Below, piece after piece: positions 40,508 through 45,293 of a stretch of DNA of 64,000 bases. The stretch is from contig VGLJ01000019.1 of the NCBI GenBank assembly GCA_016866775.1, positions 1 to 64,000 on the forward strand, given 5' to 3'. The position numbers and the translations under genes are program-made. Each line of letters begins with the position of its first letter. The stretch's first letter is position 1. The DNA comes from Candidatus Rokuibacteriota bacterium. Lineage in GTDB: Bacteria > Methylomirabilota > Methylomirabilia > Rokubacteriales > CSP1-6. The notes below the pieces were generated by a model, which did not search any database, had not been told where the DNA came from, and saw only the letters and a program-made list of their open reading frames with translations.

Positions 40508-41101
40508 CTAGCCGCGCCCGGCGGCGAGCGGCGGCGGCCCGGACGCGCCGCCCGCGGCGCCCGGCATGTCCAGCAGCGCGTTGACGAGATCGGCCAGGGC
40601 GCTGCGCGACGCTTGATCGGCGAGCGCGCCCTCGCGGAAGTGCGCGGACTCGAGATAGACGCTGGTCGGCACCACGCGCGCGCCGAACCACGCCAGCACC
40701 GCGCGAAGCTGCCAGTCCACGCCCAGGTAGTGATGGGCCGTGGCGCCCATGGCAACGATCCCCACCGGCTTGGCGCGCAGCGCCTCGATCGGCGTGAGGT
40801 CGAGCAGGTTCTTGAGCGCGCCCGTGAAGGTGCCGCGATACACGGGGCTCGCCAGCAGCACGCAATCGGCTGCCGCCACGCGCGCCACGACCGCGCCGGT
40901 GTCGTCGTCGAACTTCTCGGGCGGGCGGCCGTCGGCGAACGAGACGCGGTGATCGGCCAGGTTCAGCAGCGACGCCGACACGCCGGGCCGCGCCGCCGCG
41001 ATCTCGACGGCCGTGGCGATCGCCGCGTTCAGACGGCCCGGTGGCGTGACGGCGCCGACGACCGCGAGAAACGTGCACGGGCGCTCACCAGCGCCCCTCA
41101 C
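40508..41101 (-). CDS. NAD(P)H-dependent FMN reductase (SsuE-like)
   Basis: 197 residues from GTG 41101, overlapping the upstream monooxygenase stop (GTGA). The flavodoxin-like fold is shown by FLAVVGAVTPPGRLNAAIAT and the DCVLLASPVYRGTFTGALKN loop. Flavin reductases of this type supply FMNH2 to two-component monooxygenases, and the gene directly upstream encodes an SsuD-like monooxygenase, so they very likely work as a pair. Confidence 0.9.
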   Translation of the reverse strand: MRGAGERPCTFLAVVGAVTPPGRLNAAIATAVEIAAARPGVSASLLNLADHRVSFADGRPPEKFDDDTGAVVARVAAADCVLLASPVYRGTFTGALKNLLDLTPIEALRAKPVGIVAMGATAHHYLGVDWQLRAVLAWFGARVVPTSVYLESAHFREGALADQASRSALADLVNALLDMPGAAGGASGPPPLAAGRG

Positions 41102-42198
41102 GTGCTCACCATCGCGGCGCGGTCGCGGCGCGCGACTTCGCTGCGCACCAGCGGGATCAGCGCGCGGCCGTAGTCCCGCGCGTCGTTCAGCGGATCGAAG
41201 CCGCGGATCAGGAGGGTCGTGCAGCCGATGTCGTAGTAGGCGAGCAGCGACTCGGCGACCTGCTCCGGCGTGCCGACCAGCGCGGTGGTGTTGCCGGCGC
41301 CGCCCATCGCCGCGGCGATCGCCGTCCACAGGCGCGTGTCGTGCACCTCGGCCTCGCGCGCGAACTCCACGAGGCGCTGCGCGCCCACCGCCTGCGGACG
41401 GATGCCTGGGCCCTCGCCCACGATGTGGCGCCCCGTCTGCCGCACCCTGGCGAGGATGCCCCGCGCGCGCTCCCACGCCTCGGCCTCCGTCGGAGCAATG
41501 ATCGGGCGCAGCGACACGCTGATGCGCGGACGTCGTCTGAAGGCCACCGCTTTCCCGTGGATGTCGGCGATGCGCTGCTTCACCGCGGCGAGTGGCTCGC
41601 CCCACAGGGCGTAGACGTCGCAGTGCTTCGCCGCCACGTCCGCCGCCGCGCCGGACGCACCACCGAAGTAGAGCGGGATGCCGCCCGGCCGGAGCGGCTT
41701 GACGTCCGAGAACGCCTTGGCGAAGCGGTAGAACTCGCCCTCGTGATCGAACGGCTCGGAGGCCGTCCACATGCGGCGCAGCACGCCCAGATACTCGTCC
41801 GTGCGGCGATAACGCGTGTCGTGATCGAGCCAGTCGCCGTCGCGCGTCTGCTCGGCATCGCTGCCGCCCGTGATGATGTGCAGCGCGATGCGGCCGTTCG
41901 TGACGTGGTCCAGCGTGGCCGCCGCGCGTGCGGTCAGCGTGGGCGCCACGAAGCCGGGACGGTGAGCGATGAGATAGCCGAGTCTCTCGGTGTGAGCGGC
42001 CGCGTACCCCGTCACCGCGAATCCCTCGGCCGACGTCGACGTGTACCCGACGAGCACGCGGTCGAAGCCGGACGTCTCGTGAGCCTGGGCGAACGCGCGC
42101 AGCCACTCGGTGTCGACGGCGCCGCCGATCACGTGCACGGCCGCGCCGTCCGCTCCCTCCGGCTTCACGCCGATCATGCCGATGATCTCGACGGGCAC
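41098..42198 (-). CDS. SsuD-like FMNH2-dependent monooxygenase (LLM class, copy 3)
   Basis: 366 residues from GTG 42198 (VPVEIIGMIGVKP). SsuD-type hallmarks: GFDRVLVGYTSTSAEGFAV, AHRPGFVAPTLTARAAATLD, GRIALHIITGGSDAEQTRDG and IPLYFGGASGAA. These enzymes split C-S or C-C bonds with O2 and FMNH2, such as alkanesulfonate desulfonation. The coupled flavin reductase downstream supports a two-component system. No sulfonate transporter is adjacent. Confidence 0.92.
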   Translation of the reverse strand: MPVEIIGMIGVKPEGADGAAVHVIGGAVDTEWLRAFAQAHETSGFDRVLVGYTSTSAEGFAVTGYAAAHTERLGYLIAHRPGFVAPTLTARAAATLDHVTNGRIALHIITGGSDAEQTRDGDWLDHDTRYRRTDEYLGVLRRMWTASEPFDHEGEFYRFAKAFSDVKPLRPGGIPLYFGGASGAAADVAAKHCDVYALWGEPLAAVKQRIADIHGKAVAFRRRPRISVSLRPIIAPTEAEAWERARGILARVRQTGRHIVGEGPGIRPQAVGAQRLVEFAREAEVHDTRLWTAIAAAMGGAGNTTALVGTPEQVAESLLAYYDIGCTTLLIRGFDPLNDARDYGRALIPLVRSEVARRDRAAMVST

Positions 42199-42224
42199 GG
42201 GGGCGATCTTATACCTCGCCGGCG

Positions 42225-42320: not shown

Positions 42321-42417
42321 CGACGCCGATCGGCACCGCCGGGCCTCCCTCGTCGAGCGGATTGACAGGCCCGCTGTCCGCGCTGTACGCGTGGACGCGG
42401 CAAGGGAGGATTCCGCG

Positions 42418-42807
42418 ATGGCGAGAGCGGTCACCGTGCGATCGGTAGCGGCGATGAAGGCGGAAGCCACGGTCGGCCCGCACCGGCTGGTCCTTGACGG
42501 GCCGCCCGAGGCGGGCGGCGGCGACGAGGGCCCGTCGCCCGCCGAGATGCTTCTCGGCGCGATCGGCGCCTGAAAGCTCTCGACCGTTCGGCGGTTCGCC
42601 GAACGTCAACCCTGGCCGATGGGGCGCATCGAGGCGCGCCTCGCCGTCACCGAGGGCCAGGGACGCATCACCGGCATCGACGTCGAGCTGGTGCTCCCGG
42701 GCCCGCTGGACGACACCCAGGTCGCGAAGCTCCGCGCGGCGGCCGAGACCTGCCGCATCAGCCGGGCGCTCGCCGTGCCGGTCACGCTGCGGCTGACGGT
42801 TTCTTAG
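42418..42807 (+). CDS. OsmC-family protein, probable selenoprotein (in-frame TGA at residue 52)
   Basis: 129 residues if TGA 42571-42573 is read through as selenocysteine. ATG 42418 follows AGGGAGGA with seven bases between. The sequence GPSPAEMLLGAIGA-U-KLSTVRRFAERQPWP aligns with the OsmC core, where most members have [28 protein letters not shown], so the TGA falls exactly at the peroxidatic Cys. After the TGA the frame continues as good OsmC sequence with the second Cys at 112 (AAETCRISRAL). OsmC proteins reduce organic hydroperoxides. A SECIS-like hairpin follows. A sequencing error or nonsense mutation is the alternative. Confidence 0.75.
42582..42607 (+). promoter_or_regulatory. Candidate bacterial SECIS element
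   Basis: CGTTCGGCG (42585-42593) pairs perfectly with CGCCGAACG (42597-42605) around a GTT loop. Two more pairs (42582-42583 with 42606-42607) extend the stem past one bulged C. The loop begins 20 bases after the TGA and its first base is G. Bacterial SECIS models call for an apical loop of at least three bases with an early G, located about 16-37 bases after the UGA, so all conditions are met. Confidence 0.65.
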
Positions 42808-44108
42808 TCCTCCTGCATCAGGTGATCGCGCTGGGTCGTGCCCGTGTACTCGCGGCGGAGGCGGCCGCGCCGCTGCAGCTCCGGCACCACCAGATCGACG
42901 AACTCCTCGACGGCGCCCGGCGAGTAGATCGGCGACAGCATGAACCCGTCGCCGCCCACCGCGTCGAAGTACGCCTCCATCTGGTCGGCCACCTGGGCCG
43001 GTGTGCCCACCATCTGCAGGAGGCCCACGCTCTGTCCGTGCCGCTGCGCCACCTCGCGCACGGTGAGCAGCTCGCCCGTCAGCGTGCGGTAGCGCGTCTG
43101 CATCCTCTGGAGCTGGGGCTCCGTGCGCTGCGCCATCAGCTCGTCGAGCGAGAGCTTCGCGAGGTCGAAGTCGAGGTGCCCGGAGAGGATCGCCAGGCCG
43201 CCCTCGAGCGGCACGAGCGCGTTGTGTTCCTCCTGCTTCTCGCGCGCGCGCGCCTCGCTCTCGCCGAGGATCGGCTGAATGCCGAAAAGGATCTTGCATG
43301 CATCATGCGGACGCCCCTCGTTGACGGTGCCGCTCTTGATGTCGTCGTAGTACGCCTTCGCGCCGGCGAGGTTCGGCTGGATGGCGAAGATCGCGTCGGC
43401 GTAGCGCGTGGCGAACGAGCGGCCCCTGGGCGAGGTGCCCGCCTGCAGGATCGCCGGTCCGTGCTGCGGCGAGCGGATGACGTTCAGCGGACCGCGCGAC
43501 TTGAAGAAGCGACCCTCGAACTCGATGCGGTGCACCTTGGCAGGGTCGGCGAAGACGCCGGCCGCGCGGTCCGTCACGACCGCGTCGGGCTCCCAGCTCT
43601 CCCAGAGCTTGCGGCAGACCTGGATGAACTCGTGCGCGCGCTCGTACCGCTCGTCCGACGGCCGAAGATCTTCGCCGTAGTTCGCGGACTGGTTGTGGTT
43701 CAGCGTCGTCACCACGTTCCAGGCCGCGCGGCCGCGCGTGAGGTGGTCCAGCGTCGCCCACAGGCGCGCGGCGTAGAAGGGGTGCGCGTGGCTGATGGAG
43801 AACGTGGCCCCGAGGCCGATCCGCGACGTCACCGCGGCCATGAAGCCGAGCAGCGGGATCGGGTCGTGCTCGGGCGCCTGCGTGGCGTGGCGGATCGCGG
43901 GCGCCATCGAGCCCGTGTACGTGTCGGAGATGTAGTTGAGGTCGGCGAAGAAGACCATGTCGAACTTGCCGCGCTCGCAGACCTGCGCGATGTGCTGGTA
44001 GAGCTCGGGCGTCGTCCATTCGTAGCCGGCGGCCGCCGTCCGCGGATGGCGCCACATCGCGAGGCTGTGGTACGTCGGCCCGTGGCACAGGAACTGTGCG
44101 AGGTGCAT
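42804..44108 (-). CDS. NtaA/SnaA/DszA-type FMNH2-dependent monooxygenase (LLM class, copy 4)
   Basis: About 434 residues from ATG 44108 (GTG 44120 is an alternative). The start MHLAQFLCHGPTYHSLAMWR and later WNVVTTLNHNQSANYGEDLR and GTSPRGRSFATRYADAIF are hallmarks of the nitrilotriacetate/DszA monooxygenase branch. The C-terminal FVDLVVPELQRRGRLRREYT is shared with the copy at 48870. It is the third gene of a minus-strand run and its stop overlaps the OsmC-family stop (TTAG). Confidence 0.9.
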   Translation of the reverse strand: MHLAQFLCHGPTYHSLAMWRHPRTAAAGYEWTTPELYQHIAQVCERGKFDMVFFADLNYISDTYTGSMAPAIRHATQAPEHDPIPLLGFMAAVTSRIGLGATFSISHAHPFYAARLWATLDHLTRGRAAWNVVTTLNHNQSANYGEDLRPSDERYERAHEFIQVCRKLWESWEPDAVVTDRAAGVFADPAKVHRIEFEGRFFKSRGPLNVIRSPQHGPAILQAGTSPRGRSFATRYADAIFAIQPNLAGAKAYYDDIKSGTVNEGRPHDACKILFGIQPILGESEARAREKQEEHNALVPLEGGLAILSGHLDFDLAKLSLDELMAQRTEPQLQRMQTRYRTLTGELLTVREVAQRHGQSVGLLQMVGTPAQVADQMEAYFDAVGGDGFMLSPIYSPGAVEEFVDLVVPELQRRGRLRREYTGTTQRDHLMQED

Positions 44109-44124
44109 CGCTCGCTTCACGATG

Positions 44125-45293
44125 TCAGACCTCGCCGGCGAAGTAGACGCGCGGGTCGGACGCGCGCACCCGCGCCTCGGGGAGACCCAGCTCCCGCCGG
44201 ACGATGTTCGTGCCTTCGACGAGCGCGACACATTTGTAGTAGGCGATCCGCCGGCTGAGGCCCTCGCGGCCGAAGCCGCAGTCGGTCGTGACGACCAGCC
44301 GCTCGGGCGGGATGTACTCGAGCGCTTTCCGGATCAGACGCGCGACGTGCTCGGGGGGCTCGACGACGGTGTTGCAGTGGCTGATCACGCCGATCCCGAT
44401 CTTCTTGTCGGTCTTGTGCTTCGCGAAGAGCGGCAGATCTCGCCCGTCGGTGCTCGCGCACTCGAAGGTGATCACGTCGGCGTCGAGGGCGAGCAGGTAC
44501 GGCAACGCGCGCTCGTAGCTGGGCGTCTCCCAGTACACGCGCTGCTGGTTCGGATTGCCCCAGCGCGTGTGGACCCAGATCTCGGCGTCCACGCCGACGA
44601 GCTGGCGGTTGAACGCCTCGGTCAGGAACTCGAGCTCGGCGTCGGTGCAGTCCGGCCGCGTGGTTCGCCCGTGATGCGGCGGCTCCTCGACCCGGATGAG
44701 CGGACAGCCGGCGGCGCTGAGCTCGCGAAGCTCGGCGTTCATGATGTCCGAGAGATCGTTGATGAGCGCGCGATCGTCCTTGTAGTACTCGTCCCACAGC
44801 ATGCTCGCGAGCGCCGGCGCGCAGATCGTGCCGAACTTCACGGGCTTGTCCGTGAGACGCTGGGCGACCTTCCACAGCGCGGCGTACTCGAGGGGCCGCG
44901 ACTGAGACGCCGCTTCACGACGGCCGGCTGATACGCCTCCTGCACTTCCCAGAGGATCTTGCCGGGACGCAGGCCATGACGCGACATCCAGCCGCGCGAG
45001 GTATCGCGATGGCCCTCGATCCCGCCGAGCCGCTCGATCGGATAGAAGAACCACGACTTGCCGCCGACGGCGAGATCGAACCGGCTGTCGCCGTCGGTCA
45101 CGATGTCGAGGCCCGCGGATTCCTGCGCGTTGATGACTGCGGCCACCGCGTCGAGGTACTGCTCGCGGAACAGCGAGTCGCCCAGCGCGGTCTTGAACGA
45201 CTGGCCGCGGAGGCTCACGTCGTACCAGAGCGGCCGGGGGTACGACCCCGTGATCGCGGTCGTCAGCTTCTGGTCGCGGGTGATGCGCAGCAT
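44125..45293 (-). pseudogene. MetE C-terminal-domain-like protein, one frameshift
   Basis: From ATG 45293 the product reads like a cobalamin-independent methionine synthase domain (TTAITGSYPRPLWYDVSLRG, DIVTDGDSRFD) up to YQPAVVKRRLSRGP. It then continues in another frame with LEYAALWKVAQRLTDKPVKF to the stop at 44125. One missing base in the run of Gs at 44892-44895 (Cs on the coding strand) explains the break. Zinc ligands are present: His and Cys in SHCNTVVE and Cys in TTDCGFG. Such a homopolymer slip may be a sequencing error. The intact protein would have about 390 residues. Confidence 0.8.

Follow-up and report, generated by a model that had tools for sequence, protein, structure and literature searches.

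Does the TGA at codon 52 of an osmC-like gene end translation, or is it read as selenocysteine (Sec)? The gene lies in a 64-kb stretch of DNA that was analysed as a whole and is called the window below. A hairpin noticed by eye just downstream of this TGA very probably is a genuine signal for recoding. Judged from the sequence, the hairpin at 42585–42605 is with high probability a bacterial SECIS element recoding UGA-52 as Sec. We document here the signal, its placement and covariation, its restriction to TGA homologs, its use of codons that preserve the pairing, and the complete Sec machinery of the genome. A standard annotation would truncate, split or miss this OsmC gene. The locus carries the following features:

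42404–42410, plus strand: Shine-Dalgarno-like site GGGAGGA, 7 nt 5' of the ATG (consensus match only)
42418–42807, plus strand: predicted OsmC-like selenoprotein gene (P0001), with a PF02566 match spanning the TGA and TGA-containing orthologs
42571–42573, plus strand: TGA in frame as codon 52, where OsmC has its first (peroxidatic) Cys; it aligns with an invariant column, occupied by Cys in Cys-form homologs
42585–42605, plus strand: bacterial SECIS-type hairpin with a 9-bp stem and a GUU loop, from sequence, recodings, homologs and covariation
42594–42596, plus strand: apical loop GUU (GTT), with G and U at UGA+21/+22 in all TGA homologs compared
42751–42753, plus strand: TGC, Cys112, the second (resolving) Cys of the OsmC pair, in an invariant alignment column

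The open reading frame runs from the ATG at 42418 to the stop codon at 42805–42807, and with the TGA read as Sec it encodes 129 residues. The Pfam family PF02566 matched the protein with an E-value of 5e-13 and 49.8 bits (gathering 27.5), and the match crossed the TGA. Both catalytic OsmC positions were found in invariant alignment columns, as Sec52 and Cys112, and the motif at the Sec was U-K-L-S-T (UxxS). Solved OsmC/Ohr structures matched the alignment, the fold assignment itself being based on sequence. TGA-containing orthologs, ~70% identical, were present in three related genomes. The gene is flanked on the minus strand by two flavin-dependent monooxygenase-like genes (41098–42200 and 42804–44231). 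In the homolog loci such flanks were not found next to OsmC, except for one weak match. The neighborhood is thus unconserved, and gene context adds no support.

The first-pass annotation had described a perfect 9-bp hairpin with a GTT loop, 11 nt past the OsmC TGA, and the sequence reads exactly so. The 11-nt spacer AAGCTCTCGAC (42574–42584) separates the TGA from the 5' arm CGTTCGGCG (42585–42593), which pairs with the 3' arm CGCCGAACG (42597–42605). The loop follows 20 nt after the UGA and its first base is G, as read directly from the sequence. On the plus strand of the window this was the sole perfect 9-bp hairpin with a 3-nt loop; with loops of 3–6 nt, 9-bp hairpins occurred seven times in the window, some of them being one place counted at two loop sizes.

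The stem arms overlap the codons for VRRFAER, and the earlier proposal that codon choice makes this partly coding palindrome perfect held up. Of 200,000 synonymous recodings drawn from local codon usage, a fraction of 2.5e-5 retained the full set of nine Watson-Crick pairs; the fraction was 5.5e-5 when G-U pairs were allowed and a G was required at +21. The local hairpin had a free energy of -15.0 kcal/mol, reached by 0 of 3,000 recodings (mean -7.8). It requires a GTT valine codon, which makes up ~1% of valine codons in the neighboring genes. The wider 61-nt stretch was of ordinary stability for its composition (z -0.23), so that the exceptional feature is the placed local hairpin and not the overall stability.

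The hairpin had also been said to follow the usual rules for bacterial SECIS elements, and it satisfied every numeric constraint of the published model. The bSECISearch model has a loop of 3–9 nt, an upper stem of 4–16 bp, a UGA-to-loop distance of 16–37 nt and a free energy of at most -7.5 kcal/mol, with a G at one of the first two loop bases, after which G or U is usual (PMC13188914). The window hairpin has 9 bp and a 3-nt loop, both within range, and its 20-nt distance from the UGA, its -15.0 kcal/mol and its GUU loop likewise agree with the model. Compared with the bacterial SECIS consensus, its loop of 3 nt is as short as the range allows, and no feature falls outside. In most relatives the loop is 5 nt long (UGUAY), with the G-U at the same distance from the UGA, whereas an extra pair (20–24, counting the base after the UGA as +1) gives the window hairpin its GUU loop. 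No Rfam family reached its gathering score in a scan of the window.

Homologs with and without Sec offer a clean, quantitative test of a SECIS. We searched 195 genomes and found an OsmC match in 82. Among the best ~35 matches, nearly all had exactly one TGA, and in each of the translated homologs the TGA was at the same position and was followed by a hairpin. Single-TGA homologs with the TGA at this codon came from many genomes of the class and from two genomes outside it. In 26 of the 32 distinct TGA sequences, bases 13–19 paired with 25–31 (at least 6 of 7 pairs) around a loop at 20–24. The remaining six, three each from the class families f5 and f8, had the stem shifted by one, with 14–19 pairing with 24–29. 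Every one of the 32 had a loop G at +21, with U next to it at +22.

For comparison, we cut 70 homologs with a Cys codon, drawn from many phyla, at the corresponding codon. At least five contiguous pairs from the loop, in either register, together with G-U at +21/+22, were found in 32/32 distinct TGA homologs and in 1/70 Cys homologs, counts that are not independent trials, as sequences are related within each set. Equal conservation of the hairpin in Cys-codon homologs, which the first-pass annotation had named as evidence against a SECIS, is therefore not what these sets show, with ancestry partly confounded with the codon (the TGA set is mostly of one class and the Cys set of many phyla). 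We looked for an equal pairing frequency in the Cys homologs and did not see it. When the pair run was scored with G-U counted as half, the TGA sequences had a mean of 6.44, against 1.87 in their own synonymous recodings, and the Cys sequences 1.30, against 1.19.

Four Cys homologs from Myxococcota and Verrucomicrobiota (L087, L095, L117 and L123) were nested in a well-supported, mostly-Sec clade. Their peptide was nearly the same, but position +21 held C or T and the stem was absent. The tree (107 sequences, few columns, weak deep forks) was used only for this nested Cys clade. A further candidate for a close Cys homolog, G008:C200 (51%), was dropped, its frame being without the first half of OsmC.

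Stem covariation was checked in 29 aligned TGA sequences with the structure 13–19/25–31. The score was 0.504, compared with 0.172 after shuffling and 0.022–0.120 in slid registers. Pairing cells amounted to 92.6% (shuffled 75.6%), and 34 cells had changed on both sides (shuffled 10.0). Three core pairs changed on both sides, two of the seven pairs never varied, and the outermost pair, 13–31, was unpaired in 13 of the 29 sequences. In the VLLYARR group, the second codon of the 5' arm was TTG (Leu) for GCG (Ala); the Ala and Arg of the 3' arm were unchanged, but they were written GCA and AGA, which account for 4% and 1% of codons in the window. Three window-rare codons, TTG, GCA and AGA, thus restored the pairing.

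In the window clade, which comprises the four nearest orthologs (~70% identical), the peptide VRRFAER was identical. Codon choice alone, and not two-sided covariation, therefore supports the stem there. One of six conserved-residue codons in the stem varied synonymously, with a U-G pair kept, versus 50 of 66 outside the stem (Fisher p 0.007).

The genome of the window (5.13 Mb, a draft of 159 contigs, 97.5% complete) encoded SelA, SelB, SelD and tRNA-Sec, all above curated cut-offs. SelB (381 bits, cut-off 242), SelA (592 bits, cut-off 268) and tRNA-Sec (70 bits, gathering 47; ARAGORN anticodon TCA, i.e., UCA in the tRNA) were located within ~4.3 kb of contig C43. SelD (336 bits, cut-off 125) was on contig C31 (24695–25639). 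In a search of relatives, SelB was above its cut-off in 82 of 93 genomes. The selD gene (L153) itself contained a single in-frame TGA (CASCAGU) and, after it, a stable hairpin with a 4-nt loop, GATC, whose G is at +22.

One alternative takes the TGA for a genuine stop codon, an error of sequencing or assembly, or a mutation in a pseudogene, with the hairpin arising incidentally from G+C-rich coding sequence. It would suit a draft in 159 contigs, a window with seven 9-bp stems with loops of 3–6 nt, and a 61-nt region of no unusual stability. We consider this very improbable, as homologs in many genomes carry the TGA at this codon, with an open frame before and after it, the stem is kept in so few synonymous recodings (2.5e-5), and it covaries. 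A protein-level constraint on the VRRFAER helix, instead of an RNA function, could likewise have fixed the stem, and the identity of this peptide in the four closest orthologs speaks in its favor. This is the least credible explanation of all, because Cys homologs with very similar peptides paired as their own recodings did (1.30 vs 1.19), and because the VLLYARR group restored the pairing by TTG, GCA and AGA with Ala and Arg on the 3' side unchanged.

In general, a stem that follows a stop codon can increase read-through. The hairpin might therefore stimulate ordinary UGA suppression, for example with insertion of Trp or Cys, and not SelB-dependent insertion of Sec. Such suppression is hardly to be expected here: the residue is at the catalytic Cys position, the loop and the spacing match the SECIS model, and the whole Sec pathway is encoded in the genome. 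On the SECIS reading, which we prefer, the OsmC-like gene of the window almost certainly encodes a real selenoprotein of an already recognized type.

In the E. coli system, SelB binds the SECIS loop and brings Sec-tRNA to the UGA (PMC13188914). By analogy, SelB with Sec-tRNA(UCA) and GTP would bind the GU-containing loop 20 nt after UGA-52 and deliver Sec to the ribosomal A site, where the UGA would be read as Sec. The predicted product is a 129-residue protein of the OsmC family, probably a hydroperoxide reductase. In its presumed peroxidase chemistry, Sec52 would be the attacking residue and Cys112 the resolving thiol of an OsmC/Ohr-type pair. The Cys-form OsmC/Ohr hydroperoxide resistance proteins (PDB 1vla, 1ukk, 6mjn and others) share the domain and the catalytic positions. 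They have Cys at the first position, where the window protein has Sec, and no such hairpin was present in the Cys-homolog mRNAs tested, with the single exception among 70 given above.

OsmC-like selenoproteins with the motif UxxT were reported in 2005 and 2008 from the Sargasso Sea and GOS selenoproteomes (PMC1088965, PMC2398784), and the OsmC-like selenoprotein is included in current lists (PMC13188914, PMC9312934). For one Methylomirabilota MAG, 63 selenoproteins were predicted, as cited in a review (PMC13188914). The window protein shares with the published OsmC-like selenoproteins (PMC1088965, PMC2398784) the OsmC/PF02566 domain, the Sec at the first Cys position and a bacterial SECIS directly downstream. 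It differs in its motif, U-K-L-S-T (UxxS) as opposed to UxxT. Against the NCBIfam model NF041052, OsmC-related (seleno)protein, it scored 46.3 bits, below the curated cut-off of 95, and six relatives from the class scored 41–59 bits. The UKLST motif and the score of 46 bits against a cut-off of 95 point to a further subfamily of the known OsmC selenoproteins.

Two more OsmC selenogenes were detected in the same genome. One, on contig C7 (L211, 17045–17497), belongs to a different family, with a UxxT motif (FULMT). It is of the type covered by NF041052, its relative L175 scoring 155 bits, and its hairpin has a GUA loop that also starts at UGA+21. In a different genome, the OsmC gene L179 (G070:C96) had its TGA in the first position (LATUMTTT), while its second position (LSPVYDV) lacked Cys.

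The third OsmC gene of the window's genome was OsmC/Ohr-like (L210, 1244–1654; C37:36743–37153). Its first position is Cys (SSCGVTLIE) and its second the in-frame TGA (GRUPLYRT), and it carries a conserved GGTCGC/GCGACC hairpin with the loop G at +21 or +22. In the papers that we consulted, Sec at the resolving position of OsmC was nowhere described, though this does not prove it new. We lean towards the view that this genome and its class use Sec in the OsmC fold in more than one way, as the attacking residue (window and C7 genes) and, in a separate family, as the resolving residue with a Cys attacker (C37 gene). If so, the window gene would represent an undescribed subfamily of OsmC selenoproteins, within a system that can place selenium on either side of the catalytic pair. 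The resolving-Sec family would make it testable why selenium sits on one or the other side of the same catalytic pair.

Relatives of the C37 gene (L180–L199, L217–L242 and L243–L245) were found in ~40 of 95 genomes of the class, with three TGA matches outside it. In one copy, L213 (G042:C333), a TAA comes three codons past the TGA and the hairpin is missing; this copy may be decayed or mis-assembled. A relative in G142 had Cys at the second position (RCPLYRT). All 29 distinct intact sequences of this family from the class had a 6–7 bp stem and a G at +21 or +22.
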